Assembly (NCBI GenBank): GCA_009835515.1
Contig: VXXH01000352.1
Location: 1-12,356 of the forward strand
Source: Candidatus Poribacteria bacterium
GTDB taxonomy: Bacteria > Poribacteria > WGA-4E > WGA-3G
Reading direction: 5' to 3'
Length of the DNA: 12,356 nucleotides
Numbering within the stretch: the stretch's first letter is position 1; each line of letters begins with the position of its first letter. Made by a program: the position numbers and the translations under genes. The notes under the pieces are model-generated. The model was not told the origin of the DNA. It did not search any database and saw only the letters and a program-made list of their open reading frames with translations. Below are positions 1 through 10,990 of the stretch, piece by piece.

Positions 1-291
1 CCACAGGCGTGTCGGTTGAGTTGAAGCGAGATTGATGAAAAATTACACGCATTTGAGATAGTGCTCAATAGTAGGCAGTCAGTACTCTGTCAGGGTTATT
101 TTTTTTGATAAATATCTATCATTTTCTACCCATCCACATCTGGCATCTTATATTGAACTCAGGCTATCAAAAAAATCATTCAGTAAGGTCCGGGATTCTA
201 CTTTGGATTTTAGCGTTCTCCTTCTTGGCAGAATGGATATTTGGAATTTACCGAGTTCAAGAAAAACACCTTACTGTAGGGAAGTGTATTG
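1..291. other. Upstream non-coding stretch, possible tail of a preceding gene
   Basis: No convincing gene lies here. The first 35 bases read in frame 3 as a short peptide ending in ELKRD followed by two consecutive TGA codons, which could be the 3' end of a gene left of the window, but ten codons are too few to support that. An 83-codon open frame from 105 has no ribosome binding site and ends inside the next gene, so it is treated as chance. The bases just before 292 carry the binding site used to choose the start of the next gene. No hairpin or clear promoter was found. Confidence 0.4.
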
Positions 292-3258
292 ATGACAACC
301 AATGTCTTGGAAGATATAATTGCCCACTGCCACCGCCGGCACGAGCAGCCACTTAAGCAACGGAAGACAATCTCAGCACCCCCGCTTTACAAAGGGCTTC
401 CTTATCATTTCACAGTCTATTGTGCACACGGATACCCTGTGATGCTTCAAGATTTGGAGGCAGCGGGCATTTCCTTTATGCCAATCGGGCAAGCCCCTGG
501 AACTGACCGTCCCCCACGATATTTTGGAGGGGAACGGTTCTTGAAACGTCAAGGGGTGAGGGACTGGGGGATCATCCAATGGCACAAGTCGTGCGGGATT
601 CACGTGTATACAGGTATGCCCTCGGCACGCGACGGCGCGCCCTGGCATGATATCGACTTTAAATATGAAGCCATCTGTGCTGCCCCGGATGCCGTTCTTG
701 CGTGCGTTCAGGCACTTGTTAACGCCGTTGCGAACCCGTTGTTGACGCTGTCAAAGTCGGGTGGGCTGCGTTTTTCTTGTCGGATACCGGGGTACCTGCA
801 CCCCAATACCGAGCGGCCCCTATTGTATGTCAATAAACAGACATCGACGGCAGAGCATCCGCACCGACACAAAGCATCTATTGAAATTTTCGGTGAGAAC
901 GGACACAATTGTTGGGATGCGCGTTATGAAATCCTGCTTGGAAATCTGTTAGATCCGCCTGTAATTCCTAAAGAGGTTTTCTTTGCACCGATTGATGCAC
1001 TTCGCGCTGCACTGCACGCACCTGTTTCGCAAAATGTAGAACACAAAGAGAATATCCCCGAGGCACCATACTCTCTCGGATCGGGCAAACTTGATCTCGC
1101 CAAAGAGGCGTTTTTTATGCGCGGGTTTTCTTATGTCAGACAAGAGGATGGATTTCACTATTGGCGGCGACACGGTGATGAGATTGACGACACAGAGGTC
1201 TCATTGTGGGAGGATGAAGCGGGTGTGTGGTTACGTGCGTCTACCGCCGATACCGGGCTGCCTCTGGAGGCAACGCTTCTCACAGACGTTTGGAAGGATA
1301 CTGGCATCTTGCCGCCGATTCCTGCGACAGGGCTGCCTATAGACGCTAAGGTGGTCGCTATACGGGAGGGGAAACTGAGTCCACTGTCAATAAAACGTCC
1401 TACGCCTATATTACAGAAGTCCGAACCGACCGAAAGTGCTGATGAGACCCCTCCAGAGATGAGTGTTCAGGTGCAGCGTGCTTTCGATAGGAATGTGCGT
1501 GTCCTTGGATTTACTGCCGAGATAGACGCAGAGAAAGACCCTGAAGTAGAATCCGTTCTGCGTACGCGTAAGGCAATCTGTTTAAAGGTACCGAGTGTTG
1601 ATCTTGCGGCAGTAGCATCGCGATTTCTTCAAAGTCGAGATGTCAGCTCGGTGGCAGAGTCACCGGATCGGATGCATCTCTGGGATCCGGTGAAAGATAT
1701 CCCAAGTACTCGACTGTTTTCGGACCCAGCATACGCAAAAATGGCGGAACAACTTCTCGAAATGGACGAGGGAACACGACCGCTCTGTATCACCAATACC
1801 GCTGGAGAGGATAAACTGTTTCTGAGATGCGAACTCTCGAGAACCACACTCAAGGCGTGGATTGCCAATTGGCAAGGGAATGCCTTAGGCAACTTTGCGC
1901 TGGCACTACTGAATGCAGTAGGCATCAGAGATAAATCCCATGGAAACGCTATCAAACGGGTCCGAACAGTGGTCGAGACGTTTCAATGGTTGGAAGCAGA
2001 GATCATTGAACAGATGGGTCAGGTTAATGAGGCGACTGTTGAAAACATTCAGGTGTTCCCGGCGATTTATGCGGATCCAAGTTGGACGTTTTGGCATCAA
2101 CTCAAATGTTTCTTTGAACATTACACACGTGACGCTGATGCGCCGATGCAATGGAAGGACGAAGTCCTACAGTTCCGGGTGCCGCCGGTGCTGCATCCAG
2201 GCGTCGAATACCTTTTCGTCAATATGCCAGCTCTTGATGCTGAACATTTACGGCGGGCATTCCTGGATGTAGAAACTGAGATCTTTCGCCCGGAACCGGT
2301 GGCATGGATTCTCGGAAACCGCGTTTTTCAGATTCGCACCGGTATCTATCCACGGGAGACAATTTTAGACTTCAGCAACACTTGGGATACTATGGGGATG
2401 TCTGAAACAGGGCAGCACATTTTTTCCAGGATCCAAGCGGAAATCGAAAGGGATCGAACTCTTAAGCACGGGATTATCACCCATGCTTACGCAATTGAGC
2501 AGCTGAAGGATATCGTGAAAAATGAGAATGTCTGTTTCTTGACGAATTTTCAAGATTTTCGAGAAGCGGAAGGATTGGAAATCGCCCTTCAAGAAGCGCA
2601 GGTCATCTGGATGGTTGGCATCCCGGAAATGGGAGCACCCACGCTTTTGAACCGCACGCGGATCTTGTTTGGAAACGACGCGGAGCCCCTCTCTTATGAA
2701 ATGGAAACCGAGTCCTACCGTTACAAAGACGCACGCGTCCAGAGCGTCTATAAAAAAGAGGCCACCCGTATATTCACAGAGATTATAGCGTTGGCTCAGC
2801 TGAACCGTTTGGCAAACAAGAAAGTTATGTTGATTACGGGTTTGCGAATTCCTGAGATCACCGACAGACCTGAAACGCTCCTTTTTGACTGGAAAGATTT
2901 CGATGTTGCCGGTGGGTTAGATAACCTCGCTGAGGTGATAACGACACGCCAACGTTTTGAGACGGAACGCGACAATCTGACACCTGAATCCAGCAGACAA
3001 GAAGTAGAACGTGTATTAGGATGCTCCCCAAGGCAGGCGAACCGAGTCTTACGAAGGCTAAGGGGCGGGAAAAGTGCGCGTGTTCCTTTCCGAGAGCAAA
3101 TTCTCGCACTTCTCGCCGATGGACAGAAAAAAACACCCGAACTCGTGGCGGCGATTCAAGGACATCCAAAAGCAATAAATACTGAACTCACGCGCCTCGT
3201 GGGGATCGGTGAAATTGTAAAGGTTCGACGCGGTGTTTATACACTGCCAGAGGTGTAA
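292..3258 (+). CDS. Large primase/polymerase-like and degenerate helicase-like protein with C-terminal winged helix
   Basis: A 988-aa protein of uncertain function. Seen: residues about 30-230 resemble an archaeo-eukaryotic primase/polymerase fold. They include an acidic pair HDID (D120, D122), a glycine turn SKSGGLRF (154-161) where primases usually carry GxH but this has R160, and SIEIFGE with E198, followed by CWDARYE. The middle (about 640-880) keeps the order of a superfamily 2 helicase C-terminal half: PALDAEHLRRAF near 645-656, GIITHAYA near 727-734, and KKVMLITGL near 843-851 leading into DWKDFDVAGGLDNL. No Walker A GxGKT/S is visible and motif VI (QxxGRxxR) is replaced by LAQLNRLANKK. 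A helix-turn-helix (901-923) and a winged helix (932-985) close the protein. A TTG at 289 could also start it, but ATG 292 sits better after AGGGAAG. The family assignment is inference; the reading frame is secure. It could be a replication protein of an integrated element. Confidence 0.85.
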   Translation: MTTNVLEDIIAHCHRRHEQPLKQRKTISAPPLYKGLPYHFTVYCAHGYPVMLQDLEAAGISFMPIGQAPGTDRPPRYFGGERFLKRQGVRDWGIIQWHKSCGIHVYTGMPSARDGAPWHDIDFKYEAICAAPDAVLACVQALVNAVANPLLTLSKSGGLRFSCRIPGYLHPNTERPLLYVNKQTSTAEHPHRHKASIEIFGENGHNCWDARYEILLGNLLDPPVIPKEVFFAPIDALRAALHAPVSQNVEHKENIPEAPYSLGSGKLDLAKEAFFMRGFSYVRQEDGFHYWRRHGDEIDDTEVSLWEDEAGVWLRASTADTGLPLEATLLTDVWKDTGILPPIPATGLPIDAKVVAIREGKLSPLSIKRPTPILQKSEPTESADETPPEMSVQVQRAFDRNVRVLGFTAEIDAEKDPEVESVLRTRKAICLKVPSVDLAAVASRFLQSRDVSSVAESPDRMHLWDPVKDIPSTRLFSDPAYAKMAEQLLEMDEGTRPLCITNTAGEDKLFLRCELSRTTLKAWIANWQGNALGNFALALLNAVGIRDKSHGNAIKRVRTVVETFQWLEAEIIEQMGQVNEATVENIQVFPAIYADPSWTFWHQLKCFFEHYTRDADAPMQWKDEVLQFRVPPVLHPGVEYLFVNMPALDAEHLRRAFLDVETEIFRPEPVAWILGNRVFQIRTGIYPRETILDFSNTWDTMGMSETGQHIFSRIQAEIERDRTLKHGIITHAYAIEQLKDIVKNENVCFLTNFQDFREAEGLEIALQEAQVIWMVGIPEMGAPTLLNRTRILFGNDAEPLSYEMETESYRYKDARVQSVYKKEATRIFTEIIALAQLNRLANKKVMLITGLRIPEITDRPETLLFDWKDFDVAGGLDNLAEVITTRQRFETERDNLTPESSRQEVERVLGCSPRQANRVLRRLRGGKSARVPFREQILALLADGQKKTPELVAAIQGHPKAINTELTRLVGIGEIVKVRRGVYTLPEV

Positions 3259-9317: not shown

Positions 9318-9343
9318 ATTTCTGAACAAAACTGTTCAGAAAT
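9318..9343. repeat. Perfect 11-bp inverted repeat with 4-base loop
   Basis: ATTTCTGAACA (9318-9328), loop AAAC, TGTTCAGAAAT (9333-9343). No T-run follows on either strand, so it is not an ordinary terminator. It is centred about 118 bp upstream of the inferred start of the sigma-54 promoter at 9422 and about 67 bp upstream of the inferred start of the divergent sigma-70 promoter. It could be an activator or repressor site, or the relic of a small palindromic element. No equivalent is seen upstream of the second sigma-54 promoter. Confidence 0.6.
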
Positions 9344-9421
9344 TGGACACTAAAAATAATACGGTTGTCTAACATTCAGTGAAAACCCGCCTTCAAAGGT
9401 ATCTTGCACTTGAATTGCCTT

Positions 9422-9437
9422 TGGCATGAAAGTTGCT
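9422..9437 (+). promoter_or_regulatory. Sigma-54 (RpoN) -24/-12 promoter, copy 1
   Basis: TGGCATGAAAGTTGCT matches the RpoN consensus TGGCACG-N4-TTGCW except for C to T in the -24 element. GG (9423-9424) and GC (9435-9436) are separated by exactly 10 bp. The start would be near 9448. The same element recurs in the same place in the second copy of the module. Sigma-54 promoters need an enhancer-binding activator, which is not encoded in this window. Confidence 0.7.
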
Positions 9438-9447
9438 TAACTTAACG

Positions 9448-9535
9448 ACTGAGTAAATTTGGGGAAGCCTACCTCCTTGGGGAAATACGGAGCGATGCAA
9501 AAGGCTTTCCCTTACCTCAATTACTGCATCGCTCC
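9448..9535 (+). ncRNA. Structured leader RNA with H-type pseudoknot, copy 1
   Basis: Untranslated leader of the lipoprotein mRNA. Stem 1 pairs GGGGAAGCC (9461-9469) with GGCTTTCCC (9503-9511), 9 pairs with one G-U. Stem 2 pairs GGAGCGATGCA (9489-9499) with TGCATCGCTCC (9525-9535), 11 perfect pairs. The 5' arm of stem 2 lies inside the stem 1 loop and its partner lies after stem 1, so the two form a pseudoknot or are alternative folds. The segment GAAATACGGAGCGATG is identical in copy 2. The structure ends 38 nt before the ATG and does not cover the ribosome binding site at 9561. I do not recognise it as a known riboswitch or ribozyme class. Confidence 0.6.
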
Positions 9536-9573
9536 CTCTATCCGTCTGTGCTGTGTGCGAAGGAGAAAGAATC

Positions 9574-9966
9574 ATGAAGGGATGGAAGTGCTTACTCTTT
9601 ATACTCGCTTGTTTATTCCAGATTGGCTGCGCTGCGCTTTTTACGGAGCAAGAATATGTCTTGATCGATCGTCCAGTGCGTGAAAAGGCGACTTTCAACG
9701 GAGAAATTTATTCACTCCCAGAGAGAGCGGATATTCGGAAAGTTGTGCTGCTTGGCTCTGGAAAAATCCGAAACATTGAAATTCACGTGCGTGACAAGAG
9801 AAATCAGTGGGAACCCGCCAAGAAAGTACACGGCGGAATTCAGTTTCCGTATGAAATCCCACTTATCGCCAAAACAGACGCTATCAAAATTATAAAACAT
9901 TCAATGACTGGAGCCGGTCGCATTGAGACGATTCAGTTTTTCACCGTTGCTGATAAAGGAGATTAG
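9574..9966 (+). CDS. Small putative lipoprotein, intact copy, 130 aa
   Basis: A 130-aa protein of unknown function. Residues 1-18 are a short signal (MKGWK then LLFILACLF) ending in QIGC, with Cys19 as probable lipidation site. The -3 residue Q is unusual for a lipobox, but IGC is conserved in the second copy. The mature part has two sections: about 20-56 (VLIDRPV, GEIYSLPERADIRKV), conserved between copies, and about 57-125 with alternating strands (IRNIEIHVRDKRNQW, AIKIIKH, GRIETIQFFT) that look like a beta-sandwich of galactose-binding type, which is a weak guess. ATG 9574 follows AGGAG with eight bases between. The frame is open upstream to 9553 without support. Transcription is probably from the sigma-54 promoter at 9422 through the structured leader. 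A terminator-like hairpin follows at 10017. Confidence 0.8.
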   Translation: MKGWKCLLFILACLFQIGCAALFTEQEYVLIDRPVREKATFNGEIYSLPERADIRKVVLLGSGKIRNIEIHVRDKRNQWEPAKKVHGGIQFPYEIPLIAKTDAIKIIKHSMTGAGRIETIQFFTVADKGD

Positions 9967-10016: not shown

Positions 10017-10045
10017 CGAAGACTGCACTTCTTCGGGCATTTTTT
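10017..10045 (+). terminator. Weak rho-independent terminator after the first lipoprotein gene
   Basis: CGAAGA (10017-10022), seven-base loop, TCTTCG (10030-10035), then GGCA and a run of six T. The stem is short (6 bp) and separated from the T-run by four bases. It sits 51 bp after the stop codon, where a terminator is expected. Confidence 0.5.
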
Positions 10046-10153
10046 AGACGGTTTCGCCCCTTTTTGTGCAATTTTGCGGCGTACTCGCCCAAATGTGACG
10101 TGCATTAGCAGTTGTAACGCCAAGATTAGGGGCATATTTAACATATTTGGCAT

Positions 10154-10169
10154 TGGCATGAAAATTGCT
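10154..10169 (+). promoter_or_regulatory. Sigma-54 (RpoN) -24/-12 promoter, copy 2
   Basis: TGGCATGAAAATTGCT has GG (10155-10156) and GC (10167-10168) separated by 10 bp and carries the same C to T change at -24 as copy 1. Predicted start near 10180. Conservation of the exact spacing between two diverged copies supports function. Confidence 0.7.
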
Positions 10170-10179
10170 AACAGTTTAA

Positions 10180-10272
10180 ACAACGCTGAGTAAACCATAG
10201 GAGAGCCTTTCTCCTTGGAGAAATACGGAGCGATGTGATCGGCTTTCCTATTCTCAACTGCCGCATCGCTCC
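10180..10272 (+). ncRNA. Structured leader RNA with H-type pseudoknot, copy 2
   Basis: Stem 1 pairs ATAGGAGAGCC (10197-10207) with GGCTTTCCTAT (10241-10251), 11 pairs with one G-U. Stem 2 pairs GGAGCGATGTG (10227-10237) with CGCATCGCTCC (10262-10272), 11 pairs with one G-U. Relative to copy 1, the ninth pair of stem 1 changes from G-C to A-U, and the last pair of stem 2 from A-U to G-C, both keeping pairing. Within the stem 1 loop, TTTCTC and GAGAAA form an extra hairpin that is shorter in copy 1. It precedes a gene that now appears broken. Confidence 0.6.
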
Positions 10273-10310: not shown

Positions 10311-10754
10311 ATGAATAGATGGAAAGGTCTACTCTTCATGCTCGCTTGTTTATCATATATCGGCTGTGCCACGCTTTGGACAGATCAGGCGTACATCTTG
10401 ATCAATCGTCCAGTGGACGGGAAGGCAACTTTTCACGGGGAAATTTATTGGCTTCCAGAAAGTGCGGATATTCGGAAAATTCTGCCTCAACCAATTCGAT
10501 GGCGCGATCTCCCGACGATGGGCAGACATGGCAAAATCTTCCACTCTCCCAATGTGGCCGCACTAATGATTGGGCTGTGCTTCAAGGTCAACTGTATGTC
10601 GCAGGTCAAAAAGGCGTCGGACGTTGGAGCGAAACGCTGCAAACGTGGGAATATCCGATGGATGGATTGCCCATTGATAACGCTGAAGATTCAAATGACC
10701 GACCGTACGTCTATAGTTTCGCTGTCCGCGGTGGGTACTTATTTGCCGGGTTAG
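10311..10754 (+). pseudogene. Truncated lipoprotein gene, second copy
   Basis: ATG 10311 follows GGAG with six bases between. The first 58 codons (MNRWKGLLFMLACL, YIGC with Cys19, ILINRPV, GEIYWLPESADIRKI) match the intact lipoprotein upstream at 39 of 58 positions. After about 10484 the frame carries no similarity to copy 1 and is the wrong frame of a beta-propeller fragment, running to a stop at 10754. The beta-sandwich-like half of copy 1 is missing. A product of 147 aa could still be made and lipidated, but its C-terminal 90 residues look like nonsense. Most likely a broken gene created by a deletion that joined two genes out of frame. Confidence 0.6.
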
Positions 10755-10990
10755 CCGCTCACGGTGTTTATGTCTTTGAGGCCCAATCAGAGACGTGGGC
10801 TGCCATGGGGCTTCAGGGATTATCTATTGACGCGCTCCTTTCGTACGGAGACGGACTATACGTGGGGACGAGAGATCACGGCATTTACCGTGCCGAACTT
10901 CCGGTTATCCCACCTGTCTCTGTCCAACCGCAGGGAAAGACAGTAACAACATGGGCTCGCGTGAAGCAGACCACTCACAAGCGAGATTGA
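10487..10990 (+). pseudogene. 5'-truncated beta-propeller (sortilin/WD40-like) gene fragment
   Basis: This frame, shifted relative to the lipoprotein start before it, encodes about 167 residues with propeller-like repeats: RSPDDGQTWQNLPL, LYVAGQKGVGRWSETLQTWEYPMDGLP, GGYLFAGLAAHGVYVFEAQSETWAAMGLQG and LYVGTRDHGIYRAELP. The DGQTW and GVYVFEAQSETW spacing is typical of BNR/sortilin-type or Ycf48-like repeats. A proline-rich linker and KQTTHKRD end it. The frame is open back to 10319, but that part overlaps the lipoprotein signal in another frame. No ribosome binding site precedes the internal ATG at 10499. It is probably the 3' end of a longer gene that lost its start. Confidence 0.6.

Follow-up and report, generated by a model that had tools for sequence, protein, structure and literature searches.

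A predicted pseudoknotted leader RNA downstream of sigma-54-like promoters in one genus of Candidatus Poribacteria

Introduction

Two interleaved stems recur upstream of a small lipoprotein gene in Candidatus Poribacteria, and the question raised by this locus is whether they form a structured RNA and, if so, at what level such an RNA would act. The preQ1-I and SAM-II riboswitches are leaders that fold into H-type pseudoknots, and transcription from sigma-54 promoters, the second element encountered at this locus, starts about 12 nt past the -12 element. The window analyzed here is the whole 12,356-nucleotide stretch of DNA, which constitutes contig 337 of a 4.85-Mb assembly that is 78.6% complete. 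A first-pass annotation of the window, based on the sequence alone, had described the stems in two copies of the leader and had interpreted their substitutions as the trace of a selected RNA structure that does not match several known riboswitch classes.

Results

Leader geometry and the two copies in the window

Both copies of the leader contain the two stems, P1 and P2, where they had originally been placed (Table 1), with the second copy located about 738 bp downstream of the first. The stem arms interleave, lying 24-33 nt apart, and define an H-type geometry with a P1 of 10-11 bp, a P2 of 11 bp and loops of 18-19 (L1), 2-3 (L2) and 10-13 nt (L3), while 24 nt (copy 1) or 27 nt (copy 2) separate the end of P2 from the Shine-Dalgarno sequence. 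The conserved loop elements are CUCCUUGG in L1 and CUCNAUUG in L3, and L1 also carries a CUCCUU stretch complementary to the Shine-Dalgarno AAGGAG. The compensatory changes first noticed between the copies are real, with G9461-C9511 matched by A10199-U10249 and A9499-U9525 by G10237-C10262, and the stretch reported as identical, GAAATACGGAGCGATG, is indeed the same in both. The copies stem, however, from one tandem duplication (D1-D3, D6) spanning the leader and the start of the lipoprotein gene, so that by themselves they prove little and the case rests on other genomes.

Table 1. Coordinates of predicted features in the window.
Feature	Position	Strand	Sequence or remarks
Candidate enhancer-binding-protein site	9323..9349	+	TGAACA 9323-9328, TGTTCA 9333-9338, TGGACA 9344-9349
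Sigma-54 -24/-12 element, copy 1	9422..9436	+	TGGCATGAAAGTTGC; predicted start ~9448
P1 5' arm, copy 1	9461..9470	+	GGGGAAGCCU; read from sequence, alignment, cross-fit
L1 stretch	9473..9480	+	CUCCUUGG; among the most conserved unpaired stretches (alignments, column conservation)
P2 5' arm, copy 1	9489..9499	+	GGAGCGAUGCA; sequence, alignment, cross-fit, tree-based null
P1 3' arm, copy 1	9502..9511	+	AGGCUUUCCC; partner of 9461-9470
P2 3' arm, copy 1	9525..9535	+	UGCAUCGCUCC; partner of 9489-9499
Shine-Dalgarno of lipoprotein gene	9560..9565	+	AAGGAG; sequence; similar layout in many homologues
130-aa lipoprotein	9574..9966	+	predicted mostly beta, moderate confidence
Terminator-like stem with T run after first gene	10017..10045	+	1 found, shuffles mean 1.4; weak alone
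Sigma-54 element, copy 2	10154..10168	+	TGGCATGAAAATTGC; predicted start ~10180
P1, copy 2	10197-10207 and 10241-10251	+	AUAGGAGAGCC and GGCUUUCCUAU; sequence, alignment
P2, copy 2	10227-10237 and 10262-10272	+	GGAGCGAUGUG and CGCAUCGCUCC; sequence, alignment
Second lipoprotein copy, first 58 codons	10311..10484	+	67% identical; unrelated sequence after

Distribution of the leader

The covariance search of related genomes that the first-pass annotation had proposed returned many homologues. Using a model built with P2 only (R1), 56 places were found at E<=1e-6 in 33 of the 38 genomes of the genus, one of the 56 rows being a duplicate at a locus edge, L055. The 46 genomes examined from elsewhere in the phylum gave nothing at E<=0.1 under stricter filters. 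When 60 genomes were searched at the DNA level, the leader was found in this genus only, the best match elsewhere spanning 28 bases (E 0.035), and an exact RNA pattern matched 18 genome records, all of them from Poribacteria, whereas phage, plasmid and viral collections (viral contigs by exact pattern) gave no match to the leader. Searches of Rfam 15 found no family covering the motif, at E<=10 for the window or at E<=5 for ten relatives, in agreement with the original view that the leader does not match the GEMM/c-di-GMP, SAH, preQ1, fluoride or ZTP riboswitch cores and could be a new RNA. Neither an Rfam match nor a lack of stem conservation among homologues, the two outcomes that would have spoken against that view, was observed.

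The same pseudoknot is found at a second locus (L069 2322-2416, L070 2366-2460, L075 2457-2551), where the copies show paired changes of their own but also 1-3 broken pairs each, and degraded copies of the leader occur among the homologues. In L075 the pseudoknot lies directly before a cytochrome-like lipoprotein gene. Weak matches near rpoN in three genomes (L082-L084, E 0.005-0.02), which resembled a third locus, were discarded, being read as terminator-like hairpins between convergent genes.

Evidence for paired stems

In an alignment of 36 copies (A2; 35 distinct rows), which omits the partial copies L035 and L030:849, 95.9% of cells are paired, compared to 38-56% when the 3' partners are slid. 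To avoid circularity, 69 matches (55 distinct rows) were aligned on one stem and pairing was counted on the other. Under the P2-only alignment, P1 is paired in 93.6% of cells (31-69% in slid controls), and under the P1-only alignment P2 is paired in 93.0% (25-53%). Doubly changed cells amount to 19 in P2, against 5.1 in shuffles of the P1-only alignment, and to 7 in P1, against 3.2, a count that 6 of 500 shuffles reach. A phylogeny-aware null was then considered, in which the substitutions of each column were re-placed on a tree derived from flanks and loops, with the stems excluded. For the two stems together, same-branch compensations number 10 where 1.75 are expected, pairing amounts to 94.6% where the null gives 87.4%, and none of 500 runs reaches either value. 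P2 alone shows 7 same-branch compensations for 0.78 expected (0/500); in P1 alone the compensations are weak (3 against 0.97, 38/500) and the observed pairing is reached in 1 of 500 runs. A tree inferred from the motif itself yields 8 same-branch compensations against 1.33. The 52-sequence tests omit L035, L079:6300 and L030:864/L080:1994. Furthermore, G-U cells outnumber A-C cells by 62 to 13 in P1 (31 to 12 without its one wobble-rich column) and by 27 to 18 in P2, and loop letters such as those of CUCCUUGG are conserved about as strictly as the stems.

Other observations temper this picture. In an imitation of the R-scape test, which compared all column pairs to a null derived from a tree, none of the base pairs reaches significance individually, and the best structure pair has an E of 6.45 over all pairs and of 0.037 over the 21 structure pairs; the R-scape-style support anticipated in the first-pass annotation is hence clear in the aggregate tests but not, in this imitation, at the level of single pairs. 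Counted as events, changes of Watson-Crick pairs to G-U (about 40) are matched by changes to A-C or other mismatches (about 44). RNAalifold favors a GGGA:UCCU helix over P1, and a nested fold has nearly the same predicted energy as P1 and P2 combined (mean -28.4 versus -11.7 plus -14.8). The folding z-scores of full leaders (-0.7, -2.9) and cores (-2.0, -4.6) were obtained with a program that is unable to form pseudoknots, and folding energy alone is not decisive. The presence of the leader in 33 of 38 genomes, the cross-fit pairing and the absence of null runs matching both stems together nonetheless bear out the claim of a selected structure, and the leader is very probably a real RNA fold. 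The two interleaved stems that characterize an H-type pseudoknot are conserved across homologues, and both are predicted to form in the RNA.

A predicted sigma-54 promoter and an activator-like site

Only two matches to the sigma-54 element occur on either strand of the window, one upstream of each copy of the leader. Among the homologues, a TGGCAY-N5-TTGC-like element precedes 50 of 55 copies (51 of 56 as scripted, with one locus-edge artefact), at 20-33 nt from P1 in 46 of the 50, and 27 of 51 rows (the artefact counted among the 51) have a TGTYCA-N5-TGRACA site 86-90 nt upstream of the -24 element. This site is also present at the other locus in L075, and is absent from the 140 nt above the sigma-54 element of copy 2 in the window. 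Genome-wide, sigma-54 elements with a TGTYCA-N5-TGRACA site 55-85 nt away are found in all 38 genomes of the genus, with none for a reversed-pattern control, and a Sigma54_DBD domain is detected in 37 of the 38, the window's own genome giving two partial matches. The combination of sigma-54 element and activator-like site suggests a transcript start near 9448, which coincides with the start of the region delimited by the first-pass annotation. The interpretation offered there holds for the stems and their homologues, but it had missed the sigma-54 element, the activator-like site and the sister loci devoid of the RNA. For copy 2, a sigma-70-like match (10138-10165) overlaps the sigma-54 element, so other promoters are possible at that position.

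By eye, the genes of this regulon in the genus comprise TonB-receptor-like, cyclase-repeat-like, FG-GAP-like, beta-propeller-like and cytochrome-like lipoproteins, and in L126 and L130 regulon promoters are followed by what we take to be RRXRR/IscB-like proteins. A scan for interleaved stems recovered them at 0/20 shuffles in six of seven known leaders (the second stem found in L114 is not P2), and in 3 of 41 other regulon leaders: L110 (4/20 shuffles), L123 (1/20) and L117 (0/20). The sigma-54 regulon as a whole does not share the pseudoknot, and among the leaders scanned interleaved stems are much more frequent in those of this RNA.

The lipoprotein gene and its association with the leader

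Neither Pfam (E<=0.1) nor NCBIfam (E<=1) returned a match for the 130-aa lipoprotein, its named close homologues belong to Candidatus Poribacteria, and the best sequence match among solved structures has an E of only 0.042. A structure model (pLDDT 78.6, 32 sequences) resembles fucosidase F5/8C-like, CBM32, nucleoplasmin and other folds, with TM scores to the query of 0.33-0.57 among the 50 matches listed; such mixed and moderate matches allow no firm fold call, and a sugar-binding role would be a guess from the model. The second lipoprotein gene, cut in the window, is whole in several relatives. The open frame that follows it (10319-10990) looks propeller-like by eye, its best NCBIfam match (E 0.0067) falling below the cut-off, and elsewhere in the window a 989-aa protein (289-3258) matches Pfam AbiEi_4 at its C-terminal end, with 27.6 bits for a cut-off of 25.

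The first-pass placement of the leader before a small lipoprotein gene extends to 34 of 52 classified instances; the other 18 precede something else or nothing, and 3 more leave the locus. Leaders with at most one broken pair make up 23 of the 34 before a lipoprotein and 8 of the 18 others. Among the 38 genomes, 27 hold leader and lipoprotein, 6 the leader only, 5 neither and none the lipoprotein only, a co-occurrence with a Fisher value of 9e-4 that ignores relatedness. Action in cis on the lipoprotein gene cannot explain all instances, given the six genomes that carry the leader without it.

Coding and attenuation in the leader

In 55 of 56 copies a sense frame stays open across 89 nt, and 25 of 55 share the position of a TTG start that has a Shine-Dalgarno-like stretch and at least 8 codons, so that a leader peptide may be encoded. 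An upstream ORF from the ATG/GTG in P2 (start GGAGCRRTG) was rejected, as it is not shared and 15 of the 38 copies having the start reach a stop within 2 codons. Antisense coding was likewise rejected, since each antisense frame is free of stops in only some of the 56 copies (17, 20 and 32) and none is general. With regard to attenuation, the leaders in the window contain no terminator-like site.

Related loci in a sister genus

Fourteen of 24 lipoprotein-related matches in a sister genus were examined (50-69% identical, gene starts approximate). A -24/-12 match lies within 100 nt of the gene start in 8 of the 14 and is accompanied by an activator-like site at the usual spacing in 5, while interleaved stems are found in none (last 150 nt). 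Six loci of a more distant paralogue in the genus show neither the promoter with its site nor interleaved stems. Judging from these comparisons, the RNA looks like a genus-specific module placed between the sigma-54 start and the gene, and gain in the genus and loss in the sister genus would both fit.

Discussion

A proposed cis-acting leader under sigma-54 control

The reading that we favor, with some reserve, is that of a receptor-like, H-type pseudoknot acting as a cis leader near the predicted 5' end of a sigma-54-dependent lipoprotein mRNA, where it would adjust translation or stability. Transcription would be activated by an enhancer-binding protein and sigma-54 from about 9448, the leader would fold into the pseudoknot as it emerges, and the conserved loops CUCCUUGG and CUCNAUUG would bind a protein, a ligand or another RNA, with an effect in cis on how well the mRNA is translated or how long it persists. 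With 24-27 nt between the end of P2 and the Shine-Dalgarno sequence, direct masking is unlikely. That the leader acts in cis within the mRNA is probable; that it senses a specific ligand or protein is a possibility we regard with some doubt. An older gene under sigma-54 control would have gained the pseudoknot in this genus, or lost it in the sister genus, and the RNA would represent a second, post-transcriptional layer of control. A still more speculative extension, and an unlikely one, is that of a new class of pseudoknot receptor gained in one genus behind an older sigma-54/enhancer start and sometimes outliving its gene; the lipoprotein would then answer both to a DNA-bound activator and to an RNA that reads a signal through CUCCUUGG/CUCNAUUG.

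The closest competitor, to which we would give about a one-in-four standing, is a constitutive 5' stabilizer that senses nothing and only shields a highly expressed lipoprotein mRNA from decay. The proximity of the pseudoknot to the predicted 5' end and the distance left before the Shine-Dalgarno sequence are in keeping with it, as is the fact that sister loci manage without a pseudoknot, but loops such as CUCCUUGG are kept about as strictly as the stems, a constraint that plain stability does not require. Improbable, by comparison, is an anti-Shine-Dalgarno switch in which opening of P1 lets the CUCCUU of L1 pair with AAGGAG, the two being kept apart once the pseudoknot forms. The two stretches are complementary and do pair in the minimum-energy structure of the whole copy-1 leader; in partition functions, however, the mean probability of this pairing exceeds 0.5 in only 6 of 42 leaders and averages 0.17 overall, the 14 of 56 rows without a recognized element having been left out. 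Since both stretches are near invariant, covariation cannot test their pairing.

Sigma-54 also drives trans-acting small RNAs, such as Qrr and GlmY, and the leader could be one that incidentally reads into the gene, although we hold this to have little chance of being correct. The six genomes of the genus that keep the leader without the lipoprotein speak for it, and the leader-only copies L016, L032, L033 and L034 have no broken pair and L036 has one; among the leader-only genomes, P1 is no longer present in L035, and the genome of L016 holds an additional copy (L072 3557) with 3 broken P2 pairs. Against it, no terminator-like site follows the leader in the two places scanned, the window and L034, and 34 of the 52 classified copies run into a lipoprotein start. 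It is very improbable that the two stems are instead inverted repeats in the DNA to which a protein binds downstream of the start: a rare palindromic site could resemble the nearly invariant P2, but the arms interleave at 24-33 nt in the window, and the wobble asymmetry points to the sense RNA, markedly so in P1 and to a small degree in P2.

Relation to known systems and significance

The cis leader favored here shares with leaders of the preQ1-I and SAM-II type its 5' position, interleaved stems, conserved loops and location upstream of the Shine-Dalgarno sequence. It differs from them in having no Rfam match, in a P2 that does not overlap the Shine-Dalgarno sequence, and in preceding, behind a sigma-54 promoter, a lipoprotein gene rather than a metabolic one. 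It also resembles the orphan structured RNA motifs of comparative genomics, in which a conserved leader structure with no assigned ligand is confined to one lineage; Rfam 15 does not match it, and motif catalogues may list it under another name. At the transcriptional level, the -24/-12 element, the activator-like site about 88 nt above it and the sigma-54 gene in 37 of 38 genomes resemble what is found for genes controlled by sigma-54 and an enhancer-binding protein. Searches of the open literature for RNA motifs in Poribacteria, for RpoN with leader RNA and pseudoknot, and, by title, for Poribacteria sigma-54, riboswitch and enhancer-binding protein found nothing on this leader.

The leader adds a well-bounded orphan RNA with many homologues to a phylum for which no RNA-motif work was found in open papers. 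The linked sigma-54 regulon, present in 38 of 38 genomes, provides a context for the possible role of the lipoprotein. Those sister loci that combine a relative of the gene with the promoter and the activator-like site, and have no interleaved stems, offer a natural comparison through which the gain of a post-transcriptional module becomes testable.
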